From Xanthomarina sp. F1114 (GTDB taxonomy: Bacteria > Bacteroidota > Bacteroidia > Flavobacteriales > Flavobacteriaceae), in contig NZ_JAPMLL010000008.1 in NCBI RefSeq assembly GCF_026410255.1, positions 1-64,000 on the forward strand: a DNA stretch of 64,000 nucleotides, written 5' to 3'. Shown here one piece after another: positions 1 through 16,126 of the stretch. Every line of letters starts with the position of its first letter. Position 1 is the first letter of the stretch. The notes under the pieces are model-generated. The model was given only the letters and a program-made list of their open reading frames with translations. It made no database searches and had not been told where the DNA came from. The position numbers and the translations under genes were made by a program.

Positions 1-1760
1 AGTGGATCGTAACCATTCATATAATAAGTAGAAAAATAATTGAAGGTAATCCCTGTTTGTAAAAATAAGGCCTTCTTGAAAAAATGATTGGAGTAGTATA
101 GTGTGTTTCTTGTTACAAACTCTGGTACATTAAACACTTCATTGTCGTCTTTTACAGTTTGATAAACTATGGTGTTATCTAGAGCAAACTTTTTATACCT
201 AAACTCTTTTTCTAACTTGATGTTTAAATAGCTAATAGATTTATCACTTTGAAAAGGCTTGACAAAACCTGTATCTGTTTCCTTTTTAAAGTAGGCATAA
301 TCGTTTATTGTAGTCATGCCTACAGATAGATTGGCAATTTTATTAGATTTTAGTGCAAATTCTATATTTTGGGTCTTTACATTATTAAAGTCTGTTTGCC
401 AATTGTAATTTTGATAAACACTTTGGTATAAAAGGAAGTTATAATTAGGAGTTTGGGAGTTATGCTTTATTCTTGCACTAAAGGCAATATCCTTAGTAAA
501 TTGATATGAGGCTGCTCCTTCTATAAAGTTACCAGCAAAATCTCCAGATAGATTTAAACCAAAGTCTGCTTCAATATGAAATCCCTTAATGTCTTTAGAA
601 TAAGCCCCACCAATAGCCACTACATCTCCTAAAAGTCTATTTGTTATTAATGTGTTGTTAATATAGGTTACTTTATCGTATCCGTAATTATAGTTATTAT
701 AATCAATATGAAATTCGAGATTACCCAAGATATTATTACTATAATTGGCATAAGCTTGTGCATAAAAATTCTCGAGTGTTACCCGATCTCTCAAGCCTGA
801 TGATTGAAATGCTTTTCCAAAATAATCGTTTTGCTTACTTTGATTATATTCATAATACTTATCTTCAAAAGAAAGGATATTTCCAATACTCAATTTATTT
901 TTAGTTAAGGAATCTGTATCTTTTAAAATTTTGAAACTATGATCAAGATGAAACCTCTTCCCTTTTAACATGCTTTCTGCATCTTCAAAATTAACGGCTA
1001 AAACAGATCTATCTTTAAACTCTTCGTTTCCTGATTCAAAATATGGCACATTACTATCTTGGAGTCCTCCATTTTCTTCATTTAACAAATCTTGCATCAC
1101 AACATGTGCGTTTGCTATATATCTATTATTTTTAGTTTTGTAACTAGTCGTAAACCTAAAATTTCCTGTGCTGGTTAAGGCGTGTTGATATTTTCCTAAA
1201 GAGCGCAAACCTTTATATGCAATTGAGAAGTTAAATTGCTTGGAGGTATTAACAGTAAAAAAGGCATCGACTTGCTGCCCTTGTGTAAATGCTGTTTTAT
1301 AATAAAGATCTGTAAAAGGTGTAGGCACATGGTAATAGTTGACATCTTCTATTTCCATATAATTAAAATGTCTAGCTCGCGCGCCAAATAAAGGCATAAG
1401 CTTGTTATCGTCAAAATTATAAATTAATGTATTATAAGACTGACCTACGTTAGAAAAGGCCATTAAATTAAAATTGTCTTTTCGAAGATAATTAAACTTA
1501 TATTCCTTTTTAACTGTTAGAGAGGTATCGACAATAGTTGTGTCTCTAGTATGCGAGATAATTAAATATTGTTCAATTTTAGCATCCTTATTTACAAGTC
1601 CCTTATTACTAGTGCTTTTTGAAGAGCCTCTATTAAAAGAATCTTCATTAGTGTTTCCTCTAATAATACTTCCTTCTTCCTTATTAATAGTAGGTGTAAT
1701 TTGAGAAAACCCAATATTGACAAAAGCTAATAAAAAAAATGCTAAAAATATTCTCCTCAT
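1..1760 (-). CDS. Putative porin (Porin_10-type outer-membrane barrel), 3' end beyond window
   Basis: The reading frame is open from an ATG at 1760 leftward to the window edge (about 586 codons, no stop), so the C-terminus is missing. The protein starts MRRIFLAFFLLAFVNIGFSQ, a classical signal peptide ending before Gln. After a low-complexity N/S/K stretch come long runs of alternating aromatic/polar strands (for example NFHIDYNNYNYGYD-like and FNYFSTYYMNGYD-like segments), as expected for a large outer-membrane beta-barrel. The pattern resembles the Bacteroidota 'putative porin' family (Pfam Porin_10) as I remember it, often next to rnhB as here. Family assignment is from recall, without a profile search. 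It is divergent from rnhB with a 178-bp AT-rich spacer. Confidence 0.75.
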   Translation of the reverse strand, partial: MRRIFLAFFLLAFVNIGFSQITPTINKEEGSIIRGNTNEDSFNRGSSKSTSNKGLVNKDAKIEQYLIISHTRDTTIVDTSLTVKKEYKFNYLRKDNFNLMAFSNVGQSYNTLIYNFDDNKLMPLFGARARHFNYMEIEDVNYYHVPTPFTDLYYKTAFTQGQQVDAFFTVNTSKQFNFSIAYKGLRSLGKYQHALTSTGNFRFTTSYKTKNNRYIANAHVVMQDLLNEENGGLQDSNVPYFESGNEEFKDRSVLAVNFEDAESMLKGKRFHLDHSFKILKDTDSLTKNKLSIGNILSFEDKYYEYNQSKQNDYFGKAFQSSGLRDRVTLENFYAQAYANYSNNILGNLEFHIDYNNYNYGYDKVTYINNTLITNRLLGDVVAIGGAYSKDIKGFHIEADFGLNLSGDFAGNFIEGAASYQFTKDIAFSARIKHNSQTPNYNFLLYQSVYQNYNWQTDFNNVKTQNIEFALKSNKIANLSVGMTTINDYAYFKKETDTGFVKPFQSDKSISYLNIKLEKEFRYKKFALDNTIVYQTVKDDNEVFNVPEFVTRNTLYYSNHFFKKALFLQTGITFNYFSTYYMNGYDP

Positions 1761-1938
1761 AATTATTTTTTAGACCTTGCAGGAGCTAAGATGTTTTTAA
1801 ATTTGTACAGTTATATTGGATTCAAATAAACAGATAGTAAATAATTTTTGTCAAAAATAGAAAATATCTTTTTGGATTTTATTTATTATAGACAATATTA
1901 CAATTAATAATAACGTCTTATTCTTAAGATTTATATAA

Positions 1939-2538
1939 ATGCTAAAATTTAATTATTCAAACTTCCCCCTAGAATGTGGCACAGATGAAGCTGGTAGAGG
2001 CTGCCTATGTGGACCTGTAACAGCTGCTGCCGTGATACTACCTTCAGGTTTTAAGAGTGATATTTTAAACGATTCGAAACAACTTTCTGAAAAAAACAGA
2101 AATCTTTTAAGACCTTATATCGAAGAGCATGCCTTGGCGTTTAGTGTAGCTCACGTTTTTCCTAAGAAAATTGATAAAATAAACATTCTTAATGCGTCTA
2201 TACTTGCCATGCATGAAGCAATAAAGAAGTTAAAAATAACACCCGAGTTTATTATAGTTGATGGAAATAAATTTAGGCCATACCAAGATATTCCTAGTAA
2301 AACTATTGTAAAAGGAGATAGTAAATATCTTTCTATTGCTGCCGCTTCTGTTTTAGCAAAAACGTATAGAGATGATTATATGAAAGAAATTCATCAAGAA
2401 TTTCCTATGTATAATTGGCAACAAAATAAAGGCTACCCTACCAAACAGCATAGGCTTGCCATAAAAAATCATGGTATTACGGATTATCACAGAAAATCTT
2501 TTAGGCTGTTACCAGATCAATTAAAATTAGAAGTATAA
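1939..2538 (+). CDS. rnhB: Ribonuclease HII
   Basis: This enzyme cleaves the RNA strand of RNA-DNA hybrids, including single ribonucleotides misincorporated during replication. The 199-residue length is normal for the family. The acidic active site is visible: Asp16-Glu17 in GTDEAGRG, Asp108 in IIVDGNK and Asp127 in VKGDSKY. The conserved helix [14 protein letters not shown] follows. The ATG at 1939 places the DEAGRG motif at the usual distance from the N-terminus. The next gene starts 30 bp downstream with its own -7 element, so co-transcription is possible but not required. Confidence 0.97.
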
Positions 2539-2543
2539 CTTAT

Positions 2544-2551
2544 TATATTTG
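2544..2551 (+). promoter_or_regulatory. Bacteroidota -7 promoter element
   Basis: TATATTTG matches the Bacteroidota -7 consensus TAnnTTTG, 17 nt before the ATG of the downstream lipoprotein gene. No clear -33 TTG is present at the expected distance, because that region lies inside the end of rnhB. Confidence 0.45.
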
Positions 2552-2568
2552 CACAAACCCTCAAGTAA

Positions 2569-5004
2569 ATGAAAGGAATATTTTATTTCATCTTAATCGC
2601 TTTATTAATTACAAGCTGTAATACCAATAATAAATATAGTAAACCTTCAGATTTTATTGCTGAAAACACATCGGTTGTAATAAAAATTTCCGATTTAGGA
2701 AGTGTGAAAAACAATATTACCAACAATCAGTTTTTACAAAAACTATCAAACTTAGGTGCTTATTCTACAGTTTCAAACAAAATAGCTCTCTTAAATTATT
2801 TTAACACCAATAATGAACTGCTATTATCTTTCTCAAAAGATACTAAAGATAGTCTTCAGTATACCATTATAACACCATACTCAAAAAATCTGTTTTCTGT
2901 AGACTCACTTCCCAATCATAAAATAGAAACTATTAAGTCTAACACTCACGATGCTATAACCAAAACTACGGTAGATAATAATGTGATGTTTAGTATTATT
3001 AAGGATAGTATATTTATTGGATCGTCTGAATTAGAATTATTAAAAAAGTCTTTAATAAAAAAGAAAGAGCCATCAGAATTGGCAGAACTATTAAATACGG
3101 CCGATAAAGATAGTCCTCTATCTGTTTTGATTCAAGAAAACTCTAATTCTTTGAATTCGTTTTTTTTGAATGATTCTATAAGTCATATTAAATGGACTAA
3201 CTCCTTATTATTAGATATCGATTTAAAACAGGACGAAATTTTGTTTAATGGAATAGTAAAAGCAACGGATTCTACAAAAAGTCTAATTAATGTATTTAAA
3301 AACACTATTCCTCAAGAAAATAAATTAGCCAAAATTACACCTGCCAATAGCGATGGTTTTCTGAGTTTTACTTTTAATAATTATGCTAATTTTAAAGCGA
3401 ATCTAAAAAACTATCAAGTAAGAGATACTATAATTACAGAAACTCCCCTGTTTGATAATATTGTTGAAGTGGGTGTTATTTTTGAAGGCAAGCAAGAAGC
3501 TGTTGTATTAAACTCTTTAGACGAACTATCAACTGGAGATGCACTTTTAAACGATCAAAATTTTGTAGAAAGCTACAGACAGGTCGACATCTATAGTTTT
3601 AGCAAACCCGATTTGTTTAAAAGAAGTTTTTCTCCATTTATACAGTTTAATCAGGCTAACTTATATTGTATATTAGATAACTATTTTGTTTTTGCAAACT
3701 CTATAGAGATGCTTCAGAACATTATTGCCAGTTATCAAAATAATACAACCATAGGAGAAAGGTCTTATTTTGAAGCTGTAAAAGAAAATCTAAGCGATGA
3801 GTCTTCCTTATTATATGTCATGGCTCCAAATACTCTAAACCATAAATTAGAACAACTTCTTCGGGAAGAGTTTTCATTAAAGCTAGATAAATACAATACG
3901 TCTGCCGTTCAATATATTTACGACACTAATTTTGCTCATGTAAATGCTGTGGTTAAAAAGAGTAAAACCAAGGCGGTAGAGAATTCGGTAACCGAAGAAT
4001 TCAATATAAAAATTACCAACGACTTATTAAATACGCCACATTTTGTAGTAAATCATGAAACAAACCAAAAGGAAATTGTACTTCAGGATGTAAAAAACAA
4101 CTTGTATTTAATATCGAATACAGGTACACTTATCTGGAAAAAGCAACTTGATGGTGCTATTCTAGGGAAAATAGAACAGATAGACATGTACAAAAATGGA
4201 AGGCTACAACTAGCTTTTGCAACTTCAAGTAGAGTCTATGTTATAGACCGAAATGGAAAAGATGTGTCGCCATTCCCGTTAAAATTTAACGATAAAATTA
4301 CTCAACCTCTTTCCGTTTTCGATTATGACAATAATAGAAATTACAGATTATTAGTTACACAGGGTAAAAATATTCTTATGTACAATCAATTAGGGAATAC
4401 AGTAAAAGGTTTTAAGTATAGTAAAGCTGAAAGCGATTTGATACATCAACCTCAACATATTAGAATAGGCAGAAAAGACTATTTGCTTTTAAAAACTTCC
4501 AACAAACTTTATATTCTAGACAGAACAGGAAAAACACGAGTAAAACCTAAAAACAATTATTCCTACTCTAATCAGGCTGTTTATTTATACAACAATAAAT
4601 TTATTACAACATCTAAAGACGGTAAATTAATTACTATAGACGTAAAAGGAAACACGTCTGCGCAAAGCCTTCAATTAACAGATATGCACAACATTGTTAG
4701 CACGAGTAAAACTCTTGTTGCACAGTCTGAGAATAGGTTGACTATAAAAGGTAAGACACTAGAGATGGATTATGGTAATTATACAGAGCCGGACATATTT
4801 TATATTAACGATAAGATTTATGTTTCTATAACCGATTTACAAGCTAAAAAAATATATCTGTTTGACAGCCAAGCTAAATCTATAGCGAATTTTCCAGTTT
4901 ACGGTAATTCTAAAATAACTTTAGACAATATAGATAAAGATAGAAATTTAGAATTTGTAACAAAGGGTGATAATAATGCCATTATTATTTATCAAATAAA
5001 CTAG
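2569..5004 (+). CDS. Large lipoprotein with C-terminal beta-propeller-like region, function unknown
   Basis: This 811-residue protein has a lipoprotein signal with lipidation at Cys17 (LLITSC). Residues about 25-460 look like a DUF3352-like repeat of periplasmic alpha/beta units (phrases such as DFIAENTSVVIKISDL and LYCILDNYFVFANS). Residues about 480-811 contain recurring short strands such as LYLISNTGTLIWKKQL, VYVIDRNGKDVSPFPL, LYILDRTGKTR and IYLFDSQAKSIANFPV, the pattern of a PQQ/WD-like beta-propeller. It probably sits in the outer membrane or periplasm as a scaffold or binding protein. I do not recognise a catalytic motif. The DUF3352 comparison is from memory. Confidence 0.7.
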   Translation: MKGIFYFILIALLITSCNTNNKYSKPSDFIAENTSVVIKISDLGSVKNNITNNQFLQKLSNLGAYSTVSNKIALLNYFNTNNELLLSFSKDTKDSLQYTIITPYSKNLFSVDSLPNHKIETIKSNTHDAITKTTVDNNVMFSIIKDSIFIGSSELELLKKSLIKKKEPSELAELLNTADKDSPLSVLIQENSNSLNSFFLNDSISHIKWTNSLLLDIDLKQDEILFNGIVKATDSTKSLINVFKNTIPQENKLAKITPANSDGFLSFTFNNYANFKANLKNYQVRDTIITETPLFDNIVEVGVIFEGKQEAVVLNSLDELSTGDALLNDQNFVESYRQVDIYSFSKPDLFKRSFSPFIQFNQANLYCILDNYFVFANSIEMLQNIIASYQNNTTIGERSYFEAVKENLSDESSLLYVMAPNTLNHKLEQLLREEFSLKLDKYNTSAVQYIYDTNFAHVNAVVKKSKTKAVENSVTEEFNIKITNDLLNTPHFVVNHETNQKEIVLQDVKNNLYLISNTGTLIWKKQLDGAILGKIEQIDMYKNGRLQLAFATSSRVYVIDRNGKDVSPFPLKFNDKITQPLSVFDYDNNRNYRLLVTQGKNILMYNQLGNTVKGFKYSKAESDLIHQPQHIRIGRKDYLLLKTSNKLYILDRTGKTRVKPKNNYSYSNQAVYLYNNKFITTSKDGKLITIDVKGNTSAQSLQLTDMHNIVSTSKTLVAQSENRLTIKGKTLEMDYGNYTEPDIFYINDKIYVSITDLQAKKIYLFDSQAKSIANFPVYGNSKITLDNIDKDRNLEFVTKGDNNAIIIYQIN

Positions 5005-5052
5005 TTAAATTAAGGTTTGCACTTATTACCAAAACAACAAATAGTTTAAAAA

Positions 5053-5062
5053 TGTTAACTTT
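5053..5062 (+). promoter_or_regulatory. TGTTAACTTT upstream motif (variant copy)
   Basis: TGTTAACTTT lies 71 nt before the lipoprotein gene at 5134. It differs by one base from the TGTTAACCTT element found upstream of the ECF sigma gene and three exported-protein genes. Its function is unknown. Confidence 0.3.
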
Positions 5063-5133
5063 ATATAATCTATTCTATTAAAAGGCACGTACATTATAAT
5101 GAACCAACGTACAATCAAAAAAAATTATTAATT

Positions 5134-5769
5134 ATGAAAAAGCACATTTTAACCTTATTTTGTTTATCGTTAATATTCGTTACTAATACCAGTTGCGATA
5201 ATGATGATGAAGGCACGACACCCGAACCTGTAATAACAGCCACTAATTATATTTATGAAGGCGACTTGCGTGGGTTTTATCTAACAACAGAAATTGCACA
5301 ACTTAATGCAGACATTGATATTTGGAATCAAGTTCCAGAAAATGATCCTGGTTATGAAGAAGCTCAAGAAAACATTGAAATTGCCAACCTTCAGATAGGT
5401 GAATACGAAAGTGAAATGTCTACCATTCCAACTCCAGACTCAGCTTTTTTAATTCCAAAACCAATTTTACCTCCGGTTCCTACTCCTTCTCCTTGTGTTT
5501 GTTATTATCTCTATAATTCTATAGAGAATATTGTGTTATTACCTGGAACAGACCAGATAAGTATTTCAATCTATTCTTATAATGATGAATCTAATATTGT
5601 AAACACAGATAGTAACACGCCAATAGAGGATATTCCAGGATCCAAAAACAATGGAAGATATCAACCTTTCACTTTCGAGCAACCTGGATTTGTTGGAGAA
5701 GCCTTTATTGTGGTCCAAAGCGATTCGGACAGCTATACTATTCACGTCAATTTTGAAAAATTGCCATAA
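5134..5769 (+). CDS. Small hypothetical lipoprotein
   Basis: This is a 211-residue protein. MKKHILTLFCLSLIFVTNTSC is a lipoprotein signal with Cys21 as the likely lipidated residue. It is followed by DNDDEG, an acidic tag resembling the Bacteroidota lipoprotein export signal for surface display. A proline-rich stretch with a CVC motif lies near residues 110-125, and the C-terminal half is strand-rich. I recognise no family. It ends 41 bp before an intrinsic-terminator-like hairpin that touches the next gene's start codon. Confidence 0.7.
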   Translation: MKKHILTLFCLSLIFVTNTSCDNDDEGTTPEPVITATNYIYEGDLRGFYLTTEIAQLNADIDIWNQVPENDPGYEEAQENIEIANLQIGEYESEMSTIPTPDSAFLIPKPILPPVPTPSPCVCYYLYNSIENIVLLPGTDQISISIYSYNDESNIVNTDSNTPIEDIPGSKNNGRYQPFTFEQPGFVGEAFIVVQSDSDSYTIHVNFEKLP

Positions 5770-5772
5770 ATA

Positions 5773-5804
5773 TTGGAAAAACAAGCTATTCGCTAAAATA
5801 TTTG
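5773..5804 (+). promoter_or_regulatory. Possible promoter for the CHAT gene
   Basis: TTG at 5773-5775 and AATATTTG at 5797-5804 give a near match to the Bacteroidota -33/-7 promoter, with a spacer of 21. The first base of the -7 element is A instead of T. Transcription would start near 5810, so the whole leader would be the hairpin at 5811-5833. Confidence 0.35.
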
Positions 5805-5810
5805 TAAATT

Positions 5811-5839
5811 AGTCTTCAGTTATACTGAAGACTTTTTTT
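5811..5839 (+). terminator. Intrinsic-terminator-like hairpin abutting the CHAT start codon
   Basis: AGTCTTCAG pairs perfectly with CTGAAGACT around a 5-nt loop, and a run of T follows up to 5839. The ATG of the next gene begins at 5840. It should terminate the lipoprotein transcript, but it also forms the immediate 5' leader of the CHAT gene. Confidence 0.8.
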
Positions 5840-8599
5840 ATGAATTTGCCCCTATTTTTATTAGCTATATTATGGTCCGCAAACCTAGCTATTGCTCAAA
5901 ACACAATAGATTCTACTTACTACAGCAACATAACAACTTTATACGGGAAAGCCTTTCAACACTTATATTCTAATCAAGATTCTGCTTTCTATTATTTTGA
6001 CAAAATTAATACCGAAGCTATTAAACATGAAGATATTGAAAGTTTAATAAGTAGTCTTAGCGCTTCAAATAAAACAGCTGCCCATTTTTACAACCTTGAG
6101 AGATTAAAGCTTAATTTAAAGCAATTGGATTCTATTGTTTTAAAAAATGATGTAGAGTTACGAAAAACAGATAACTATTTAGTTTATATAAATAACATAT
6201 ATTTTGACAAAGGGATCTATTATTTTACATTAAACGATTATGAAAATGCAAGAAAATCTTATCAGGCCATTATCAGCTCTATCGAAGCCTTAAAAGAGAA
6301 CGAACTCAATGTGTACTTAATAGATTTATTAACCAGCGCTTACAGTTATATAGCTAAAATGTATGTGAATGATGAAAAATACGAACTTGCAAAAGACTAC
6401 TACACAAAAAACATTCATTATTTAGAAACTAAAAAGGCTGATGATATTATTAAAATAAACAGAAACTATAGTCTTCTTGCCGAAGTATTAAAACTTCAAA
6501 ATCAGTTAGATGCTTCCAATCTCTACTTTAAAAAGTCTTTGGAATATAATTTAAATAATCAGGGCAATTCAAGTAGTATTATTACTGAAGCTAATCATTT
6601 ATTAGAAAACTATTTAAGCAAATCTAAAACGGATAGCGCCTTTTATTACTTGAAAATAATTAAAGACCATCTTTCAGAGAATCACCCAATTAAAAATAGA
6701 TATTACGAAGCTAAAGCCAAGATTTATAACGCTACAGGTGAATATGAGTTAGCACAGGCCGAATTACAGAAAGCCCTGGAATTTATTAAACAAAAATGGC
6801 AAAACAAACCACATAACGAAGTAGCCGAAATTTACAATACCATTGGAAAGCTACACTTCAAATTTAATCAACCCGAGAAAGCTCTTGAATCTTATAACTT
6901 AGCTATTTCGCAGTTTCCCTTAGACAAAACAAATTCTACCATAAATGAAACTACAATCTTAAAAGTTCTTAAAAACAAAGCAGATGTTTTAAATAGCAAA
7001 CAACTTTATGTTGATAATATCTTAACCGTAAATCAGGCATTACAAACTTTAGATCTATTAAAACCAACATTTAAAAGCAATGAAGACAAGTTGTTTTTAA
7101 TGGAAGATGCCTTTCCTATTTTCGAGTCTGGAATGGAAGCTACGTATAATTTATACAATAATACCAAGCAAGATTCTCTAATTGACAGAGCTTTTTATTA
7201 TTCGGAAAAAAGTAAAAGTGTCTTATTATTAGATGCTCTTCTTAGTACCAGAGCTACAAAGTTTGCCAACATTCCTAAAGATATTATTGAAAAGGAACAG
7301 GTTTTAAAATCTCAAATCAATTATTTAGAAAAGAAACTAAACAAATCTAAAACCAATACTTTAGAAAATGAGTTATTTGAAACAAAAAGAACTTATAGAG
7401 AATTAATAAACACAATTGAGACTAATTATAAAAGTTATTACGATTTAAAATACAGTCAAGATGTAATTTCCATAAGTGATTTTCAAAAATTCTTAAAACC
7501 TAAAGAAGCCCTACTGTCTTACTTTTATGGAAATAAAGCTATATATATAATAAGTGTTTCAAAAAACTCAAAGACCATTCAACAATACAAGTTAAATCCT
7601 GCTATAAAAAATGAAATAATTTCTATATATAGTATGCTTAACAATCCAACGTCTGATCTAGAAGTGTTAAACAAAAAAACAAATGACTTATATAAAAAAT
7701 TAGTCGTACCAAGTTTAGAAGGTCTTTCAGGAAAAAAACTAATTGTAGTAACCGACGGCTTATTGAATTATGTCCCTTTTTCCAGTTTATCTACAGATGG
7801 AGATTCAAATTATTTAATAGAAAAGCATGCTATTAGTTATGCTAATTCAGCTACTTTATTAAAGCAACTCTCAGAAAAAGAAAATACTAATAATAAAGTT
7901 TTGGCTTTTGCTCCTAGTTTTGAAGCTTCATCTTATAACAATCTACTTCCATTACCTCATAATCAAAATGAGGCGGAAGATATATTAAATTACTTCGACG
8001 GAAAAACATTAATAAAAGAACAAGCAACGCTTCAGAATTTCAATTTAGAAAGTAAAAATTATGGCTTATTACATTTTGCAACGCATGCCATTTTAAATGA
8101 TGAAGTTCCCGAATATTCATATTTAGCCTTTGAACCCAATAATGCGGAAACTAATTTGTTATATGTAAGTGATTTGTACAATTTAAACCTCAACTCCAAT
8201 TTAGTTACTTTAAGTGCTTGCGAGAGTGGCATAGGTAATTTAAAGCGTGGAGAAGGTTTTATAAGTTTAGCTAGAGGGTTTTACTTTAGTGGAGCTTCTA
8301 GTATATCCAGTACTTTATGGAAGATTAACGATGGGTCAGCTTTAAAGATTATGGATGTTTTCTATAAAAATCTATCAGAAGGAAAATCAAAAAACTTAGC
8401 CCTACAGCAGGCTCAAGTATCATATATAAAAGATAATAATCAAAACTCCTTAATACATCCTTATTACTGGTCTGGTTTTGTTATTTCTGGAAAAACTGCA
8501 GCTATTACATCTCCTACTAATTTATGGTGGTATGTATTTGGAATTGGGGCTCTTGTTATCTTAGTTATTTCTATAAGGAAATTTAAAAAGACTACTTAA
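5840..8599 (+). CDS. Exported TPR-CHAT protein, caspase-like putative protease with C-terminal membrane anchor
   Basis: This 919-residue protein starts with a signal peptide (MNLPLFLLAILWSANLAIAQ). Residues about 100-460 are helical TPR-like repeats with A/Y/F-rich pairs (for example YELAKDYYTKNI and EKALESYNLAISQFP). A coiled linker around residues 480-530 follows. The C-terminal third is a CHAT domain (caspase HetF-associated with TPRs). The expected catalytic dyad is present: His749 in LLHFATHAIL and Cys794 in VTLSACESGIG, followed by the typical FISLARGF and STLWKI elements and HPYYWSGFVISG. A single membrane segment (about 895-912) and a basic tail (RKFKKTT) end the protein, predicting a periplasmic protease domain anchored in the inner membrane. 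It converges on the sigma/anti-sigma operon, and the 3' ends overlap by 8 bp. Substrate and activity are inferred. Confidence 0.9.
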   Translation: MNLPLFLLAILWSANLAIAQNTIDSTYYSNITTLYGKAFQHLYSNQDSAFYYFDKINTEAIKHEDIESLISSLSASNKTAAHFYNLERLKLNLKQLDSIVLKNDVELRKTDNYLVYINNIYFDKGIYYFTLNDYENARKSYQAIISSIEALKENELNVYLIDLLTSAYSYIAKMYVNDEKYELAKDYYTKNIHYLETKKADDIIKINRNYSLLAEVLKLQNQLDASNLYFKKSLEYNLNNQGNSSSIITEANHLLENYLSKSKTDSAFYYLKIIKDHLSENHPIKNRYYEAKAKIYNATGEYELAQAELQKALEFIKQKWQNKPHNEVAEIYNTIGKLHFKFNQPEKALESYNLAISQFPLDKTNSTINETTILKVLKNKADVLNSKQLYVDNILTVNQALQTLDLLKPTFKSNEDKLFLMEDAFPIFESGMEATYNLYNNTKQDSLIDRAFYYSEKSKSVLLLDALLSTRATKFANIPKDIIEKEQVLKSQINYLEKKLNKSKTNTLENELFETKRTYRELINTIETNYKSYYDLKYSQDVISISDFQKFLKPKEALLSYFYGNKAIYIISVSKNSKTIQQYKLNPAIKNEIISIYSMLNNPTSDLEVLNKKTNDLYKKLVVPSLEGLSGKKLIVVTDGLLNYVPFSSLSTDGDSNYLIEKHAISYANSATLLKQLSEKENTNNKVLAFAPSFEASSYNNLLPLPHNQNEAEDILNYFDGKTLIKEQATLQNFNLESKNYGLLHFATHAILNDEVPEYSYLAFEPNNAETNLLYVSDLYNLNLNSNLVTLSACESGIGNLKRGEGFISLARGFYFSGASSISSTLWKINDGSALKIMDVFYKNLSEGKSKNLALQQAQVSYIKDNNQNSLIHPYYWSGFVISGKTAAITSPTNLWWYVFGIGALVILVISIRKFKKTT

Positions 8600-9311
8600 G
8601 TTCTTTTAGAAGCTTTTCAGCTTTGTCCTTATTATAAGTGTAATTAGTAATTAAATCTTCTAAATAAGTTTTTGCCAGATCTTTATCTTGCGCTTTAACA
8701 GCTATCAATGCTAAATACCAAGTCGATTCTGCTTCAAAACCCTGATTTTCCTGAACCACCTGGGCAAATAAGTTTTTCGCTTCCTCAGAGTTATTAAGCC
8801 CTAAAAAAGCTTGTGCTTTATAAAAATTGATATAGTTTTCTTTTGCTTCTTTAGGAATAGCATCAAACTTCTCAATAGCAATCTGGTAGTTTTTAGTTTC
8901 GTAAGCAACAAACGCTTCTCTTTCTATAGACTTAGCATCATCGCTTCTTGTAATGGTATAAACCGTGTTTGGATAAGCACTAAAATTAGTATCGTATAAA
9001 CTATTATAATTGGTGTTAAAAAGAGTGTTGTATCCAAACCATCCAATTAATAAAGCTATTGAAGCTGCAATAGCAAGGTTTCTATGGTTAAAAATGGTGG
9101 TTTTTGGTTTATCTAATTGATTTTCAAAACCTTGAAGTTTCTTTTTTAATCTATCTGTATGGGTGCTTTTAATAGCTTTTTGTAAATCTTCCTCTAACTT
9201 AAATTGAGCTTTAAAATCGGGATCTGTTTCCAGTAAATTTTGGAATAGAGCCTCTTGCTCAGCTGTTAAACTGTTAGAGAAATAATGATATAGTAAATCT
9301 TGATTGTTCAT
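8592..9311 (-). CDS. Membrane-anchored TPR protein, putative anti-sigma factor
   Basis: This is a 239-residue protein. Residues 1-75 (MNNQDLLYHYFSNSLTAEQEALFQNLL...) resemble the short cytoplasmic helical domain of Bacteroidota anti-sigma proteins. One membrane segment lies at about 78-95 (LAIAASIALLIGWFGY), and residues about 125-239 form two to three TPR-like helix pairs (YETKNYQIAIEKFDAIP; AFLGLNNSEEAKNLFAQVV). Basic residues precede the membrane segment, so the TPR part should face the periplasm. The gene starts 5 bp after the stop of the ECF sigma gene, so the two are surely co-transcribed. The anti-sigma role is inferred from gene order, topology and N-terminal resemblance. Confidence 0.8.
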   Translation of the reverse strand: MNNQDLLYHYFSNSLTAEQEALFQNLLETDPDFKAQFKLEEDLQKAIKSTHTDRLKKKLQGFENQLDKPKTTIFNHRNLAIAASIALLIGWFGYNTLFNTNYNSLYDTNFSAYPNTVYTITRSDDAKSIEREAFVAYETKNYQIAIEKFDAIPKEAKENYINFYKAQAFLGLNNSEEAKNLFAQVVQENQGFEAESTWYLALIAVKAQDKDLAKTYLEDLITNYTYNKDKAEKLLKELK

Positions 9312-9316
9312 TTTTA

Positions 9317-9886
9317 TTATTGGTTGCTATTAATTCTTTCCTTTAAGGTTTTCATACATCTGGACTTCGCACTTTTTACAACATTTTCGCTTGTGTATTC
9401 GCTAGCCTCAATAATATCCTTTATACTATATCCTCTATAATAGAATAAGGTTAACAGTTCTTGACATTTTTTTCCTAGAGTTCCAAAATATTTCTTTAAT
9501 AAAACTTGCTCTGTAGTTAGCTCTCCTTGATCTAAATCTAAATTTGAATCCACAAGTTCTTCCTTTTCTCTAATAAGAGATAAATCGAAATCTGGATTTA
9601 TGGTCTTATTATTCTTTTTCATCTTATCAAAAATTAAATACTTTCCTATACTAAATAAATACGTAGAGATAGAACTTGTAAACTCCTCTATTTTCCCCTG
9701 CATCACATTATTATAAAAAATTATATAGGCATCTTGATAGACATCTATAACATCTTCTTGTGGTAGATGGTATTTTCTAGCAAAATTTATAAACTTGTCC
9801 CTATTGTCTTCGTATATTCTTTTAAAGAGCAAATCGGAGCCTTGTTTTAAATCTTCAATAGTTATGTTCTCTTGAACTCTATGCAT
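9317..9886 (-). CDS. ECF-type RNA polymerase sigma factor
   Basis: This is a 189-residue sigma-70 family protein with the two-domain layout of group IV (ECF) factors. Region 2 is around residues 20-95 (DVIDVYQDAYIIFYNNV, FSIGKYLIFDKMKK), then a linker, and region 4 is at about 130-185. Its helix-turn-helix is YRGYSIKDIIEASEYTSENVVKSA. The ATG at 9886 is the only plausible start. It forms an operon with the membrane TPR protein directly downstream, the usual sigma/anti-sigma arrangement. The TGTTAACCTT element sits 19 nt upstream of the start codon. Confidence 0.93.
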   Translation of the reverse strand: MHRVQENITIEDLKQGSDLLFKRIYEDNRDKFINFARKYHLPQEDVIDVYQDAYIIFYNNVMQGKIEEFTSSISTYLFSIGKYLIFDKMKKNNKTINPDFDLSLIREKEELVDSNLDLDQGELTTEQVLLKKYFGTLGKKCQELLTLFYYRGYSIKDIIEASEYTSENVVKSAKSRCMKTLKERINSNQ

Positions 9887-10237
9887 TTAATATCCTAAAT
9901 TATAAAAGGTTAACATAATCCTGCTAAATTAACTTTTTTTAAGCATAAGACATTCATTTTTCTTACAGATCTAAGTATTTCATTAAAATTTATACACACC
10001 CTAGTTTTCTAATATCAAAACATGACCTAGATGATATACGTTAAAAAATTTATGCTATAAGATGTTTACCATCTATTAAAAACCACACTAATAAGTGTAA
10101 GACAAAAGTAATATCTAGTCTATTTACAAACTAGAATACTAGATTCAAACCTGAAAACAATAGTCAAATTTTACAATTTGGAACGCTCACAGATTAACAT
10201 GAGTTATAACATTATAAACTATTTAAAAGCCATATAT
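9887..10237. other. Intergenic region between the sigma operon and a divergent lipoprotein gene
   Basis: This 351-bp AT-rich region must hold the promoter of the minus-strand sigma operon and that of the plus-strand gene. It contains TGTTAACCTT (minus strand, 9915-9906). Small hairpins AGATG/CATCT near 10060 and ACACT/AGTGT near 10088 are visible, both without T-tracts. No reading frame of convincing quality is present. Confidence 0.5.
9906..9915 (-). promoter_or_regulatory. TGTTAACCTT motif upstream of the ECF sigma gene
   Basis: The element is an exact copy of the 10-mer found before the genes at 11924, 12636 and 13345. It ends 19 nt before the sigma ATG. That is too close for a normal -35 box with the start codon downstream of +1, so it may be an operator or activator site instead of a core promoter element. 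Confidence 0.4.
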
Positions 10238-11152
10238 ATGAGAACTTTATTGAAACAATCCTTTTTAACACTTATTATTTTACTTTCTCTTTTTAATTGT
10301 AGCACAGACGATGATGGAGAAGATATAATAACACCACCAGAAAACACTAGGTTAAAAACGTATAGTTTTAATTCTAATGAATATTTAGTAACCTATAATA
10401 CGGATGGTTATGTTTCTGAATACCGTAATTCACCAGATACTCCTGGAAACATAGTTTATAATTCAGACAATAAAATAATTCAATTAGGAGTCCAGAGTTT
10501 TAACTATAATTCTCAAGGACGAATTTCTGAAATTACAATGCCAGATACTGCAACTTACAGTAATCAAAAAACAAATTTAACTTATAATAATGATGGGTTA
10601 ATTGCCCATCAAACCCTGAGCTATGTTAATAACAGTGGAGAAACTAAAAATATGCAGAGATTATTTGAATATAACGCGAATAAAGAGTTAATATCTATTA
10701 CCGAAAAGTATATATCTGACTCCGTATATTCGCGTAATCTTATAAGCTATGACTCCAATGGGAATGTTTCTCAGGTTATTAATTATTACAGTCATGATGA
10801 CGTTTTATATTCATATCTCCAAGACTATACTTTTGTGTATGACACTAAAAAAAACCCATCAAAACTATTACTTAGCGATTGTGGTGTTACATCTAATTTC
10901 TCGTTGTATAATATGATTTCTCTTTCTACAACGAATTTTTTTGGTAATTATACACTTTTTAGATTAAGTTATTTTAGCAATAATAACGTTATCTCTAGCG
11001 AATACTCCAGCGATTTTGGGTCTTCAAATAATAGCGTCTATACCTATGTTTATAACGACAAGGACTATCCAACATCTGTTGAAATTTACAATACTTATTC
11101 AAATGGTTCTAATTCTACCCATTATAGAACCTGGACCTACGAAACCTATTAA
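10238..11152 (+). CDS. Lipoprotein with YD/RHS-like beta-strand repeats, function unknown
   Basis: I place the start at the ATG at 10238, not the upstream TTG at 10178, because MRTLLKQSFLTLIILLSLFNC is then a proper lipoprotein signal with Cys21. The acidic tag STDDDGED follows. The 304-residue product contains short repeats of the type 'YNSDNKIIQL / YNSQGRISEI / YNNDGLIAHQ / YNANKELISI / YDSNGNVSQV', with spacing of about 20-45 residues. This resembles YD or DUF4595-like strand repeats seen in Bacteroidota surface lipoproteins. It is probably displayed on the outer membrane. No enzyme motif is visible. Confidence 0.75.
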   Translation: MRTLLKQSFLTLIILLSLFNCSTDDDGEDIITPPENTRLKTYSFNSNEYLVTYNTDGYVSEYRNSPDTPGNIVYNSDNKIIQLGVQSFNYNSQGRISEITMPDTATYSNQKTNLTYNNDGLIAHQTLSYVNNSGETKNMQRLFEYNANKELISITEKYISDSVYSRNLISYDSNGNVSQVINYYSHDDVLYSYLQDYTFVYDTKKNPSKLLLSDCGVTSNFSLYNMISLSTTNFFGNYTLFRLSYFSNNNVISSEYSSDFGSSNNSVYTYVYNDKDYPTSVEIYNTYSNGSNSTHYRTWTYETY

Positions 11153-11923
11153 AGATGTAATAAGCCTTTTTTAAGACCAACATTTGTCTTTAGGTTATGT
11201 TGTTATCAACTTTTAATCATTCAAATTAATCATCAATAATTAAGAAACACATTTTCATGAAACATTCAATAAATAAAAAATGTATGAGCATCCAGAGAAT
11301 TGATAGTATTCAAACCATTAAAATTGTTTTTCTTTATTTTCTAACGGAACAATATCTTGCAAAGTGAAGACAATTTATTATAAATAACTTTTCTTTATCT
11401 TAGACACAAAACGTCTTCAATAAAAACCTCATTTTTCAAGTTACACTCAAGTCTTACCTATTGGAGAGCATGAAGCTTAAGTGTTTTCTACTAAAAATAC
11501 GAGTCAAACTAAAAGTTAGTTCTCCATAAAAATATGCTCTAAGAGATGTTTATTGGGGTATAAATTAGGTACTGGATTTTAGACATAAAATTCCTTTGAA
11601 GGTAGTACAACAGAAATTAAAGCAAATAAGCCTCCAGAGCACGTTTTTATAGAACCATAGTTATTAATAGGGAATAAGGTTTAAGCAACTTAACAAGAAT
11701 TAAAAATTCTATAAAAACAATACTCTTTTAAAGGCACTTTTAATCAAGCTAATACAATTCTTATCTACTCTGGGTTATATTGAACATCATGCGCTCTCAG
11801 ATAACAAGCAACACCTCTTTAATCTCGTATTTCACAAAAATAATACAAGTTGGAAACCTCTATTTATGTCCTTTCTTTTAACCAGATGTTAACCTTCCAT
11901 TTAAAATTTTATTAAAAGAAAAC
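11153..11923. other. 771-bp stretch without a recognisable gene
   Basis: All six frames are broken by frequent stops. Short open patches exist, for example a 36-codon ATG frame at 11257-11367, but none looks like a real protein. The last 40 bp hold the TGTTAACCTT element of the next gene. The stretch could be a decayed gene or a non-coding RNA locus, and I cannot tell which. Confidence 0.5.
11887..11896 (+). promoter_or_regulatory. TGTTAACCTT motif upstream of the small barrel gene
   Basis: This exact copy of the shared 10-mer ends 27 nt before the ATG at 11924. That spacing would suit a -35 position for a very short leader. Confidence 0.4.
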
Positions 11924-12484
11924 ATGAATAACTTTAAAATAATTAAAAACATGACATTACCAAACTACAATTCAATTAAAAACAAGATTGCATTTTTAAC
12001 CTGCGCCACCATGCTCTTATTTGGTCTTCAAGCCCATGCCCAAATCTCTATTGGTGGTGGTATTGGATACAACGGGGAAATTTCTGGTCCAGGGATAACA
12101 GGTAAAGCTGAATTTGGCATTACTGAAGAGATTGCCATTTCTCCAGGAATAACTTACTTCTTTGGCAGCAAATTATATGGATATAATAGAAATTTATTAG
12201 CTGTAGATGTAAATGCACTCTATTTCTTTGAAATTATAGAAAGCAAATTACAAATTTACCCGCTGTTAGGTGTAAATTATTCTAATTACAAAACAGGTGT
12301 CTCTTCTTATTATGGATACTACTATGGATCGAGCAAAGTGAGCGATAATGCATTTGGCGCAAATATTGGAGCTGGTGCAAAATATTCGTTTTCAGAAAAA
12401 TTAAGTGTCTATTTAGAACCTAAATATGTGGCAAGCGAATTTGACCAGGTAGTCGTTAATGCTGGTATTTTGTTTCAGTTATAA
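11924..12484 (+). CDS. Small outer-membrane beta-barrel protein
   Basis: This is a 186-residue protein. A second in-frame ATG at codon 10 could also be the start. The signal peptide ends at LQAHAQ. The mature part alternates strands and glycine-rich turns (ISIGGGIGYNGEISG, FGITEEIAISPGITYFF, YPLLGVNYSNYKT, AFGANIGAGAKYSF, LYLEPKYVAS-like) and ends in VVNAGILFQL with aromatic/hydrophobic alternation, as in OmpA/OmpX-like 8-strand barrels (OMP_b-brl). Its role could be adhesion or envelope stability; no specific function can be read. An intrinsic terminator follows at 12541. Confidence 0.8.
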   Translation: MNNFKIIKNMTLPNYNSIKNKIAFLTCATMLLFGLQAHAQISIGGGIGYNGEISGPGITGKAEFGITEEIAISPGITYFFGSKLYGYNRNLLAVDVNALYFFEIIESKLQIYPLLGVNYSNYKTGVSSYYGYYYGSSKVSDNAFGANIGAGAKYSFSEKLSVYLEPKYVASEFDQVVVNAGILFQL

Positions 12485-12540
12485 GCTTATATCCCATATC
12501 GTAATTAAACTACTTATTTTATTTGAATTAGTCTTCAAAA

Positions 12541-12579
12541 CAGAAAAATCAAACTTAAAGTTTGGTTTTTCTGTTTTTT
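12541..12579 (+). terminator. Intrinsic terminator after the barrel gene
   Basis: CAGAAAAATCAAAC pairs with GTTTGGTTTTTCTG around TTAAA (one G-T pair), followed by a T-run ending at 12579. Confidence 0.85.
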
Positions 12580-12588
12580 GTTAACCTT
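12579..12588 (+). promoter_or_regulatory. TGTTAACCTT motif upstream of first collagen-like lipoprotein
   Basis: This exact 10-mer overlaps the end of the preceding terminator T-run and lies 47 nt before the ATG. The surrounding leader (including TATAAATCAATAAAAA near 12610) is repeated almost unchanged before the paralogous gene at 13345. Confidence 0.45.
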
Positions 12589-12635
12589 TTATAATTAAAA
12601 ACATAAAAGTTATAAATCAATAAAAATTTAAAATC

Positions 12636-13232
12636 ATGAAAACAATTTTAAAAGCAAAGTATTTAGTATTAGCCTTATTTGTAGCTTTTAGTTTTGCATG
12701 CTCGCCAGAAGATGGCGAACCAGGACCTCAAGGTCCAGCTGGAATCGATGGCGTAGATGGTGCCGATGGTACGGATGGTACGGATGGTACGGATGGTAAT
12801 GCAAACGTAATTTACTCAAGTTGGTTTGGCCCAGATGGTCAAACATTTATTTCTAATGGTTATATATCCTATGCTGAGTTTGAGGTTAATGTTCCAGAAC
12901 TAACAAACGATATCATTAACAATGGTGTTGTTTTAGTCTATGCAAAACTTAGCAATTATGTTCCCGAGGTTTGGCCTGAAGGACATATTGCTCAATTGCC
13001 AATTACGATAGGCGGTGGTACCACAGATCATTTTTACACCTATTATGTTGAGGAGTCTAATATTAATATTCGTTATCGTCGAGACGGACCTCAACCTGAG
13101 TGGATATTTTCATCAACAAATCGTTTTAGATATGTACTAATTCCAGGAAATACTGGTGCAAGAGTACAACAAATAGACTACTCAAAAATGACTTATGAAG
13201 AAGTTATAAATCATTTTAATTTAGAGTTATAA
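12636..13232 (+). CDS. Collagen-like-repeat lipoprotein (paralogue 1)
   Basis: This is a 198-residue protein. The lipoprotein signal MKTILKAKYLVLALFVAFSFAC places lipidation at Cys22. Residues about 27-57 are a run of Gly-X-Y triplets (GEPGPQGPAG, then DGADGTDGTDG), a collagen-like stalk rich in Asp-Gly. The C-terminal ~140 residues form a strand-rich domain ending in YSKMTYEEVINHFNLEL. Such proteins are common cell-surface lipoproteins in Flavobacteriaceae, function unknown. The gene at 13345 has the same layout and a related C-terminus (YEEVINHF versus KEAVMHEL), so the pair arose by tandem duplication. Confidence 0.8.
   Translation: MKTILKAKYLVLALFVAFSFACSPEDGEPGPQGPAGIDGVDGADGTDGTDGTDGNANVIYSSWFGPDGQTFISNGYISYAEFEVNVPELTNDIINNGVVLVYAKLSNYVPEVWPEGHIAQLPITIGGGTTDHFYTYYVEESNINIRYRRDGPQPEWIFSSTNRFRYVLIPGNTGARVQQIDYSKMTYEEVINHFNLEL
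12765..12797 (+). repeat. 9-bp tandem repeat in the collagen-like coding stalk
   Basis: GATGGTACG is repeated three times perfectly with a partial fourth copy, encoding Asp-Gly-Thr. Copy number could vary by slippage without breaking the frame. Confidence 0.85.
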
Positions 13233-13245
13233 AACAACTTTTATT

Positions 13246-13276
13246 AAAGTCTGAAATTAACCCTTCAGACTTTTTT
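13246..13276 (+). terminator. Intrinsic terminator after collagen-like paralogue 1
   Basis: AAAGTCTGAA pairs with TTCAGACTTT around an 8-nt loop, followed by a T-run. Confidence 0.85.
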
Positions 13277-13284
13277 CTACTTTT

Positions 13285-13294
13285 TGTTAACCTT
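13285..13294 (+). promoter_or_regulatory. TGTTAACCTT motif upstream of second collagen-like lipoprotein
   Basis: This exact copy lies 50 nt before the ATG, in a leader that repeats the architecture seen before 12636. Confidence 0.45.
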
Positions 13295-13344
13295 CTAAAT
13301 AAACTAACATTAAACCTATAAATCAATAAAAACTTAAAAAAATT

Positions 13345-13971
13345 ATGAAAACAATCCAAACAACAATGTCAAAATCCAAGTATGTATTATTGGCTCTTTT
13401 AGTCGCTTTTAGTTTCTCTTGCTCTCCAGAAGATGGCAACGATGGTGCACAAGGTCCAGCTGGAATGGATGGAACTGACGGGGCAGATGGTAATGCGAAT
13501 GTGCAAACTTTTATTTTTAATTCACCTTCCTGGAGAGCGAGTGGTTCTGGAATGAAACTAAACTTGACAGATGTACTGACAGACTATGTAATAGAAAACG
13601 ATGTGATACTTACTTATGTAAAATTTCCAGATTCTGAAGAACCTAGTATTGTTCCTGGGAAAGTATTTATAGGAGGGGGTTTTAAGGACATGTTAGTGTC
13701 TTATGGTACTTCTACTAACACAGGATTTCCAACTCCTCAACATTTAGGTCTCGTTTGTTTCGAGGAAAACGGAAACCACACTCCAAATGCTAATTTGCCT
13801 GCTGTTGAATGGGTTAAAGTTATTATTATAGAGTCTACTAACACCACTACCACAGAGGGCAATGGTCGCGTTATGAGTGGTAAAGAAGCCGTAATGCATG
13901 AATTACAAAGTGCTGGTATTGATATAAATAATTACGACGTTGTTTGTAGCTATTACGGCATTGCAAATTAA
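13345..13971 (+). CDS. Collagen-like-repeat lipoprotein (paralogue 2)
   Basis: This 208-residue protein has a lipoprotein signal ending in LVAFSFSC (Cys26 from the first ATG; an ATG at codon 8 is an alternative start). SPEDG and about eight Gly-X-Y triplets (DGAQGPAGMDGTDGADG) follow, fewer than in the upstream paralogue. The C-terminal domain is strand-rich and ends in a helical segment KEAVMHELQSAGIDINNYDVV. It shares leader, signal and tag with the gene at 12636 and has its own terminator, so each copy is a separate transcription unit. The function is unknown, presumably on the surface. Confidence 0.8.
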   Translation: MKTIQTTMSKSKYVLLALLVAFSFSCSPEDGNDGAQGPAGMDGTDGADGNANVQTFIFNSPSWRASGSGMKLNLTDVLTDYVIENDVILTYVKFPDSEEPSIVPGKVFIGGGFKDMLVSYGTSTNTGFPTPQHLGLVCFEENGNHTPNANLPAVEWVKVIIIESTNTTTTEGNGRVMSGKEAVMHELQSAGIDINNYDVVCSYYGIAN

Positions 13972-13990
13972 AAATCCTTTTTGCCTCATT

Positions 13991-14022
13991 AAATCCGAAG
14001 TTAAACGCTTCGGATTTTTTTT
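13991..14022 (+). terminator. Intrinsic terminator after collagen-like paralogue 2
   Basis: AAATCCGAAG pairs with CTTCGGATTT around TTAAACG, followed by a T-run. Confidence 0.9.
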
Positions 14023-14083
14023 ATAAACAACATTCAACTTTTTCTCTTGAAATGATTAGTATTGCATACTCAATTATCAGACC

Positions 14084-15133
14084 ATGATTTCTAGAAAAAA
14101 TGCTTCCATATCCAAATGTATCATCCATAAAGTGGGTAACAAACACAACAATACCAAAAATGCTTTTTCTGAAAAAGAAGTCCATTTTGACGAAGCCAGT
14201 TACGAACTGATGCTACCGTTTTTATTAAGACCTTTTGGTTCTGTGGTGCAATCTTACAGATTTAATCATCATGCTGATATCTCTTTAAATGAAATTAACA
14301 CCTACAGCGCTCAAATGTTTAATGAAGATGACACCTTTATTGAAACCTCAAAACACATTGTCAAACACTTGTTCGAACAATCTAATTCGGCACAAATAAA
14401 AACCGGCGATGTTTTGGTAGTGATGTTTGAAGGCATTGAATTCAATGAAATAACCACCAATGCCTTAGGAATTTTTAAAATTGAAAGCAAAGTCAATTTC
14501 TTTCAAACTTATTTAGAGAACAATAGTTATGACGTCTTGGTTCAAAAAGGAATCAGTTCTAAAAGAGTAGATAAGGGTTGCTTAATATTAAACCAAACAG
14601 ATACAGAAGGTCCCATTATTTTAAGTGCAGACAATAACAATTACGATGCACAATATTGGACCAACCACTTCTTAAATATTAAATATGCTGATGATGCCAA
14701 TAGCCATACCCAACAGTATATTGAGTTATGCAAAGATTTTTCTGAAGAGGTTTTAAAGATATCTTACGGCAACCAAGAACAGAATACCTTTTTAGCTAAA
14801 ACCATCGATTTTTTTAAAGAAAATGAAACCGTAAATGTGGAGCGCTTTAAAGATGAGATTTTTGAAGAAGACAAACACAAAACTTTATTCGAGGATTATA
14901 AAAAAACCTTCGAAGGAGAACAAGACCTCGTTATAAGGAATCAATTTGATGTAGCTGAAGCAGTTGTTAAAAAAGAAAAGAAAAAGATTAAAACCGATAT
15001 TAAACTAGACACCAATATTCAAATCAAATTAGATATTGATGCTCCGGAAGCTTCGAGCGAATATTTAGAACGTGGTTACGACGATGAGAAAAAAATGCAC
15101 TATTATAAAGTGTTTTTTAATACTGAAGGTTAA
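14084..15133 (+). CDS. Nucleoid-associated protein, NdpA/YejK family
   Basis: This 349-residue protein matches the family layout. An N-terminal stretch contains 'IHKVGN...' (residues about 10-20), and the centre carries LVQKGISSKRVDKGCLIL. The C-terminal half is helical (DFSEEVLKISYGNQEQNTFLAKTIDFFKENETVNVERFKDEIF) and ends in an Ig-like strand region (IQIKLDIDAPE...YYKVFF). E. coli YejK/NdpA is found on compacted DNA. The stop is followed after 2 bp by the ATG of a transporter gene, so the two are translationally coupled. Assignment is from recall of the family pattern. Confidence 0.75.
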   Translation: MISRKNASISKCIIHKVGNKHNNTKNAFSEKEVHFDEASYELMLPFLLRPFGSVVQSYRFNHHADISLNEINTYSAQMFNEDDTFIETSKHIVKHLFEQSNSAQIKTGDVLVVMFEGIEFNEITTNALGIFKIESKVNFFQTYLENNSYDVLVQKGISSKRVDKGCLILNQTDTEGPIILSADNNNYDAQYWTNHFLNIKYADDANSHTQQYIELCKDFSEEVLKISYGNQEQNTFLAKTIDFFKENETVNVERFKDEIFEEDKHKTLFEDYKKTFEGEQDLVIRNQFDVAEAVVKKEKKKIKTDIKLDTNIQIKLDIDAPEASSEYLERGYDDEKKMHYYKVFFNTEG

Positions 15134-15135
15134 TA

Positions 15136-16101: not shown

Positions 16102-16126
16102 ATTACAAAATCTATGTGACTTAATA

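Follow-up and report, generated by a model that had tools for sequence, protein, structure and literature searches.

Gene organization of the locus

The window analyzed here (the whole 64,000-nt stretch of contig NZ_JAPMLL010000008.1 from Xanthomarina sp. F1114, a member of the Flavobacteriaceae) carries adjoining genes for a CHAT protein with tetratricopeptide repeats (TPRs), a membrane TPR protein, and an extracytoplasmic function (ECF) sigma factor. We propose that their products form a protease-gated switch in which the CHAT protein would cleave the TPR protein, a predicted anti-sigma factor, and thereby release the sigma factor. A first-pass annotation had suggested such a switch from the sequence, and the three open reading frames (ORFs) on which it was built are real and placed as that annotation had placed them. 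The genes of the locus are as follows:

5134..5769, plus strand: lipoprotein-like gene (211 aa), adjoining the CHAT gene on its 5' side; its family is present in 8 loci and has no Pfam match
5840..8599, plus strand: TPR-CHAT protein (919 aa), predicted to be exported and membrane anchored, with a catalytic dyad at H749/C794
8592..9311, minus strand: predicted transmembrane anti-sigma factor (239 aa), with an N-domain at about residues 1-70, a transmembrane (TM) segment at 79-97, and a periplasmic TPR region at 129-238
9317..9886, minus strand: ECF sigma factor (189 aa), above the TIGR02937 cutoff

The CHAT gene converges on the TPR gene with an 8-bp overlap, and a gap of 70 bp separates the lipoprotein-like gene from the CHAT gene. 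The locus had been described as lacking any CRISPR component, and this held up: Cas1 was found nowhere in the genome, no spaced repeat array was found in positions 1 to 20000 of the window, and PADLOC returned no match for the five window proteins submitted. A role in phage defense was rejected on the same PADLOC result.

Conservation of the three-gene linkage

The trio of CHAT, TPR anti-sigma, and ECF sigma genes recurs at 64 collected loci, bearing out the co-occurrence expected in Bacteroidota (below, L numbers denote loci, G numbers genomes, and C numbers contigs). When 60 genomes, including the window's own, were searched with the sigma factor, a CHAT gene lay within the 8.5- to 13-kb stretch around 16 of the 20 best non-self matches and around 3 of the next 20. 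One of the 16 CHAT-linked sigma loci, L057, has a different second gene; this variant cluster (L057:656-6953) encodes an ECF sigma factor, a 383-aa protein with a TM segment in mid-chain and no Pfam match, a 390-aa exported-looking protein, and a CHAT protein. A CHAT-based sample, made up of the best 80 of 571 confirmed loci and taken from named genomes, contained the whole trio at 29 loci.

Linkage was also assessed from the anti-sigma side, using a profile (A2) against a 119-genome sample of the class, which gave 31 matches at E values up to ~2e-21 after exclusion of the window genome's own matches and of two matches to the TPR part only (G154 and G117). Because 21 of the 25 proteins in profile A2 come from CHAT-linked loci, the choice of these 31 loci was not wholly independent of CHAT. 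A CHAT gene was present inside the fetched stretch at 14 of the 31 loci, and at three more (G159, G123, and contig C51 of G060) coordinates placed one at or beyond the stretch edge; larger stretches showed a long ORF at the CHAT position for G159 and for C51 of G060. In total, 17 of the 31 loci have a CHAT gene within ~9 kb, whereas evenly spread genes, as the chance figure assumes, would put 0.92 loci within 6.5 kb of a CHAT gene and 1.42 loci within 10 kb. Related genomes in the sample are not independent.

The arrangement of the genes varies among the 64 trio loci. Some have CHAT convergent with an anti-sigma-sigma pair, as in the window, others are codirectional in the order sigma, anti-sigma, CHAT, and rarer orders occur; still others have a divergent pair, with at least one other gene, often for a secreted protein, before CHAT. 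That linkage has been kept through such rearrangement speaks for one functional unit, and we hold it near-certain that the three form a single signaling unit. In the window's own genome, three of six CHAT genes sit immediately beside a sigma/anti-sigma pair, and another lies in the same cluster. A fifth could be the partner of the pair that ends contig C32, because the C32 end and the C3 start, taken together, resemble the clusters L161, L164, and L165. The C32 end (L085) carries a sigma/anti-sigma pair, and the C3 start (L007) carries genes for a lipoprotein, a 651-aa protein resembling the pre-CHAT protein of L161, and a CHAT protein; an assembly gap probably divides what is a single cluster.

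The predicted CHAT protease

The CHAT protein matched PF12770 at 204 bits (cutoff, 24), its TPRs were also matched by Pfam, and it has His at position 749 and Cys at position 794, in keeping with the TPRs and intact dyad claimed for it. A crude hydropathy scan placed hydrophobic stretches at residues 1-19 and 892-915, in agreement with the suggested export signal and C-terminal anchor. The long CHAT proteins of the trio loci have a C-terminal TM segment in 64 of 65 cases and an N-terminal hydrophobic stretch in 64 of 65; topology throughout was judged by hydropathy, and exported proteins were recognized by eye from their N termini. We therefore predict an exported, membrane-anchored TPR-CHAT protein with an intact dyad and putative peptidase activity. 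Both catalytic residues are kept in all 121 collected CHAT proteins, whether or not a sigma gene is nearby (matches of >400 aa; shorter fragments were excluded). The nearest named CHAT loci include those of Aureibaculum, Olleya, and Algibacter.

A structural model of the protein (pLDDT 90.0, pTM 0.86) had its best fold matches among Csx29/TPR-CHAT chains (7y83_D, Z 32.9, rmsd 10.1, 537 residues aligned; 8eey_B, Z 32.5), followed by separases and then, among TPR chains of similar Z, by DdvA (8rot_A, Z 24.9, rmsd 12.0, 591 aligned), which the PDB title (8rot, 8rw5) calls a transmembrane anti-sigma factor. A phmmer search of PDB sequences with the CHAT domain alone gave no matches at E values up to 1, and a profile was used instead; with the CHAT-domain profile, DdvA was the best match (E = 2.8e-6), ahead of the Csx29 chains, and the His and Cys columns of the profile align with a His and a Cys in DdvA.

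A small secreted protein or lipoprotein is often encoded directly upstream of CHAT, and its identity varies between loci. At two loci the gene directly upstream of a sigma-linked CHAT encodes a subtilase by Pfam (L048:792-2180 and L089:3807-6443), and the secreted protein upstream of CHAT at L049:10976-12373 has both ends in common with the L048 protein; a secreted subtilase and CHAT could possibly act as a two-protease cascade. A cysteine-rich protein with the motif CNL[SG]ACKG[AE]CC is encoded upstream of CHAT at six loci, in five of them by the directly preceding gene (L008:14894-15463, L050:10517-11095, L053:2037-2708, L102:4751-5338, L113:5775-6353, and L121:5301-5876). The module is greatly expanded in G060 and G143, two members of one family that hold 12 and 8 of the 31 anti-sigma loci and 29 and 17 CHAT matches, respectively. 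Four CHAT genes stand in tandem at L157:11-12106, a stretch with no sigma match.

The TPR protein as a predicted anti-sigma factor

Hydropathy analysis of the TPR protein gave a single TM segment at residues 79-97, and its TPR matches fell under the Pfam cutoffs. The AlphaFold model (pLDDT 89.9) has N-terminal helices at 3-11, 17-29, and 31-66, a TM helix at 76-97, and TPR helices at 129-238. Hydropathy and charge point to one TM segment with the N terminus inside in 62 of the 64 anti-sigma proteins of the trio loci, and the sigma gene adjoins the anti-sigma gene in 62 of 64 loci, the exceptions being L143 and L162. The earlier picture of a one-TM protein with a cytoplasmic N-domain and periplasmic TPRs is thus upheld, as is the prediction, now extended across the trio loci, that the TPR-bearing parts of CHAT and of the anti-sigma factor both face the periplasm.

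A profile of the N-domain matched the N-terminal region of seven proteins (L197 to L203; 98.6%, E = 9.8e-16), each encoded directly after an ECF-like ORF, with an alignment that extends into the TM segment. Six of the seven have a periplasmic trypsin domain by Pfam and keep the GNSGG serine motif, and L203 has neither. These six single proteins combine an anti-sigma-type N-domain, a TM segment, and a trypsin domain (L197:586-1608, L198:839-1873, L199:594-1685, L200:900-1988, L201:1044-2132, and L202:243-1319), and by domain content they would represent a protease built into the anti-sigma factor. The iterated anti-sigma profile, from which the FecR and RskA-type matches come, also found FecR (L072; FecR by Pfam) and a TonB_C type (L061), and the likeness to the RskA_C type was weak (50%). 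Matches in a fold search with the anti-sigma model were filled by TPR chains, and the TPR part of the model matched residues 112-281 of DdvA at Z 12.7, a level at which repeats can match by chance. The N-domain looks like a modular anti-sigma domain, common to trypsin-type proteins beside ECF sigma factors, and the TPR protein would presumably bind the ECF sigma factor. A juxtamembrane stretch after the TM segment (YPNTVYTITR in the window and PDPGLPTTM at other loci) could be a recognition or cut site; its conservation is patchy, and we make no claim for it.

The adjoining ECF sigma factor of the first-pass annotation was confirmed by TIGR02937 (57 bits; cutoff, 42.9). The protein scored 48.7 bits with the Bacteroidetes subfamily TIGR02985, under the cutoff of 126.4, and was therefore not filed in that subfamily.

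A shared promoter motif and predicted regulon

A two-part motif, TGTTAACYTT-N13-15-ATTAA, was derived from the window and from relatives in its genus, which means that the sites before the sigma and CHAT genes are there by construction. In four species of the genus, including that of the window, a block with TGTTAACCTT is kept upstream of the sigma gene; TGTTAACTTT lies upstream of the lipoprotein-CHAT operon in the window and of the orthologous operon in L045, L046, and L047. Sites and candidate target genes in the window are as follows:

5053..5081, plus strand: predicted sigma-dependent promoter of the lipoprotein-CHAT operon, TGTTAACTTT-N14-ATTAA, from the motif search
9887..9915, minus strand: predicted autoregulated promoter of the sigma/anti-sigma operon, TGTTAACCTT-N14-ATTAA, from the motif search
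11887..11915, plus strand: two-part motif before a beta-barrel gene, also found before similar genes in G003 (L255) and G004 (L256)
11924..12484, plus strand: predicted outer-membrane beta-barrel protein, regulon candidate (Pfam OMP_b-brl, 4.6e-9)
12579..12593, plus strand: variant site TGTTAACCTTTTATA, lacking ATTAA at the usual spacing, before a collagen-like lipoprotein gene
12636..13232, plus strand: collagen-repeat lipoprotein, regulon candidate (Pfam Collagen, 1.8e-4, under the cutoff)
13285..13313, plus strand: two-part motif before a second collagen-like lipoprotein gene
13345..13971, plus strand: second collagen-like lipoprotein, regulon candidate (no Pfam match)

The ATTAA half of the site before the sigma gene, the presumed -10 element, overlaps the annotated ATG, and the true sigma start may thus lie further downstream. 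All three genomic copies of TGTTAACYTTNTATA fall within the window (reversed control, 0). The two-part motif has 13 sites in the genome against 1 for the reversed control, and 10 of the 13 precede genes for lipoprotein-like, other exported, or outer-membrane products; the remaining three lie before the sigma gene, before a small membrane protein gene, and at a position with no ORF close by. Over 140 nt near its 5' end, the second collagen-like gene shares 74% identity with the first. The tandem collagen-like genes (window positions 12566-13492) appear as a duplication of both coding starts (74%) and promoter regions (81%), each copy with a TGTTAACCTT element.

The motif was searched for in 30 of the 59 relatives as well as in the window genome (31 genomes). 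Three relatives of the same genus whose sigma orthologue is 89 to 92% identical (G003, G004, and G005) have 7, 8, and 7 sites, with reversed controls of 1, 2, and 1, and the counts in the other 27 relatives range from 0 to 3. Among these 27, G018 has the most, 3 sites, and a sigma factor 61% identical, and two members of the same genus without a close sigma orthologue (G001 and G002) have 1 site each, with controls of 1 each. A rank test of the four genomes with a close sigma orthologue against the 27 gave a p value of 3e-4. Targets present in more than one genome include the sigma gene, the lipoprotein-CHAT operon, a beta-barrel gene, a WG-repeat exported protein gene, and a small membrane protein gene. 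Because the motif abounds only in the four close-orthologue genomes among the 31, the sigma factor probably drives both its own operon and the lipoprotein-CHAT operon, which would amount to positive feedback on CHAT.

The locus had been suggested to be an envelope-stress or programmed-response variant of a known system. The predicted regulon points to the envelope, and a programmed response found no support. No toxin-like or pore gene was seen beside the motif sites, where a minority of the proteins had been domain scanned, and programmed cell death is thus unsupported rather than rejected.

Proposed mechanism and alternative explanations

Based on these analyses, we propose a protease-gated, self-amplifying envelope sigma switch, to which as a full mechanism we assign a probability of about 0.55. 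The cytoplasmic N-domain of the one-TM anti-sigma factor would hold the ECF sigma factor while its TPR domain faces the periplasm, and the C-terminal TM helix would tether the exported TPR-CHAT protein to the same membrane face as the anti-sigma TPRs. An envelope cue, sensed perhaps via the CHAT TPRs or the co-encoded lipoprotein, would lead the CHAT Cys protease to cut the periplasmic part of the anti-sigma factor (a site-1 cut), after which an RseP-type M50 protease, for which the genome has one gene, and cytoplasmic proteases would free the sigma factor. The freed sigma factor would then transcribe its own operon, the lipoprotein-CHAT operon in positive feedback, and genes for exported proteins. 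Conserved linkage, predicted topology, an intact dyad, an anti-sigma-type N-domain, and a shared promoter motif support this mechanism; binding of the sigma factor, the cleavage event and its position, the cue, and the M50 step are what we infer. It is likely that CHAT cleaves the anti-sigma factor, and a scaffold or output role is less probable.

Several observations weigh against the proposed switch. CHAT may instead be an output of the system, such that the sigma factor turns on the lipoprotein-CHAT operon, CHAT acts on other envelope proteins, for example, the product of the variable secreted upstream gene, and the anti-sigma factor is released by some other protease or a ligand. The presence of the sigma factor's motif before the CHAT operon fits an output role equally well, as do the variable secreted or lipoprotein genes directly before CHAT, two with a Pfam subtilase domain. 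Moreover, 14 of the 31 TPR anti-sigma loci have no CHAT gene within ~9 kb; the 31 loci come from 13 genomes, four of which lack CHAT altogether, and 27 of the loci are in the other nine. We nevertheless regard an output role as unlikely, if by no means negligible, since DdvA has CHAT within the anti-sigma chain, which places CHAT on the signaling side, and since Csx29 is reported to cut an anti-sigma factor (PMC10028731). Correlated distances also argue for a link between the two proteins: across 58 nonredundant trios, distances in the anti-sigma periplasmic part and in the CHAT domain correlated with sigma controlled for (0.315, p = 0.002). The correlation was weak for the CHAT TPR part (0.154), and the anti-sigma N-domain, which is not expected to meet CHAT, also correlates (0.244), so that co-variation offers only mild support for contact.

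CHAT could also serve as a sensor or scaffold, its TPRs pairing with those of the anti-sigma factor and altering its state without cutting. In favor of this, each partner has TPRs and the two are predicted to share one side of the membrane; however, one would expect the dyad of a pure scaffold to have been lost in some lineages, and the retention of His and Cys in 121 of 121 proteins makes this role rather improbable. That retention extends to CHAT proteins with no sigma neighbor and is thus not specific to an anti-sigma substrate. The motif assignment has a further point to answer in G008, where a sigma factor 63% identical to that of the window goes with a single motif site. Finally, the genes might be neighbors by chance or hitchhiking, with unrelated functions. 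The rarity of CHAT near sigma matches beyond the best 20 and the absence of the whole trio from 51 of the best 80 of 571 CHAT-selected loci, some of which are cut by contig ends, would suit such a reading, but the linkage counts (17 of 31 against ~1.4), together with the several layouts and the common promoter motif, rule out chance neighbors and leave the idea scarcely credible.

The switch may have wider relatives. More tentatively, and at somewhat less than even odds, we suggest a general Bacteroidota class of protease-gated ECF switches that join a common anti-sigma domain to differing periplasmic protease modules, these being either a separate, caspase-like TPR-CHAT protein docking on a TPR anti-sigma factor or a trypsin domain fused into the anti-sigma factor. 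In such a class, CHAT would be the site-1 protease of an envelope response that amplifies itself, and the variable secreted protein encoded before CHAT would be its cue or substrate.

Implications and relation to known systems

A standard class I anti-sigma factor is reported nearby for only 6% of Bacteroidetes ECF sigma factors, and that study left the control of the others open (PMC7406223). For one class, the CHAT-TPR-sigma module offers an explanation that can be tested, complete with named genes and catalytic residues, a promoter motif, and a regulon prediction. If the proposed switch is correct, then the logic of type III-E CRISPR systems, whereby a caspase cuts an inhibitor and a sigma factor is released, exists free of CRISPR and on the opposite face of the membrane; if the general class is real, it would be a CRISPR-free, periplasmic form of the Csx29-Csx30-sigma logic. 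Searches limited to open-license papers turned up no report of linkage between a CHAT gene, an ECF sigma factor gene, and a TPR anti-sigma gene in Bacteroidota.

The DdvA of the PDB, which from its name alone we take to be the Myxococcus xanthus protein and the anti-sigma factor of DdvS, is a transmembrane anti-sigma factor with a CHAT domain, and shares the TPR-CHAT fold and the His and Cys residues with the window CHAT. It is a single chain of 991 residues, whereas two proteins are present here and CHAT has its own signal peptide and C-terminal anchor; gene maps for the 64 trio loci show no ORF with both CHAT and anti-sigma profiles. Inactivation of DdvA is reported to make DdvS active in M. 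xanthus (PMC4374960). Given this activation, the transmembrane anti-sigma assignment, and the CHAT domain in the chain, DdvA apparently unites, as a natural fusion, what the window encodes as two proteins.

In type III-E CRISPR systems, an ECF sigma factor is kept in check by Csx30, the protein that Csx29 cuts, and three motifs at the type III-E locus point to autoregulation (PMC10028731). This Craspase system (Csx29, Csx30, and CASP-sigma) resembles that of the window in its TPR-CHAT fold, ECF sigma factor, sigma inhibitor partner, and autoregulation motifs. It differs in that the window system, where no CRISPR part was found, is predicted to be exported and membrane bound and has a one-TM TPR protein as predicted inhibitor. 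None of the Pfam, NCBIfam, or PADLOC matches carried the Csx30 name. The parallel with Csx29 drawn in the first-pass annotation therefore stands in part: Csx29 is the best structural match (Z 32.9) and the logic agrees, but type III-E membership was rejected, no CRISPR parts having been found, and the likeness is thus limited to fold and logic.

The proposed logic is also common to DegS-RseA-sigmaE, in which a periplasmic protease starts anti-sigma breakdown (PMC10028731), and an M50 protease gene is present in the window genome. DegS is an HtrA-type Ser protease, whereas the window encodes a CHAT Cys protease whose cutting step is proposed only. The Dma anti-sigma factors of Bacteroides (PMC13088901) are likewise Bacteroidota ECF partners with an N-terminal anti-sigma domain and one TM segment, but have a disordered tether and beta-barrel where the window protein has TPRs, and the word CHAT is absent from the text examined on Dma. 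The EACC2-caspase systems, compared by description only (PMC8195603), similarly place a caspase-like protein beside an ECF sigma factor and a TPR protein, the TPR protein there being of the DUF1822 type.

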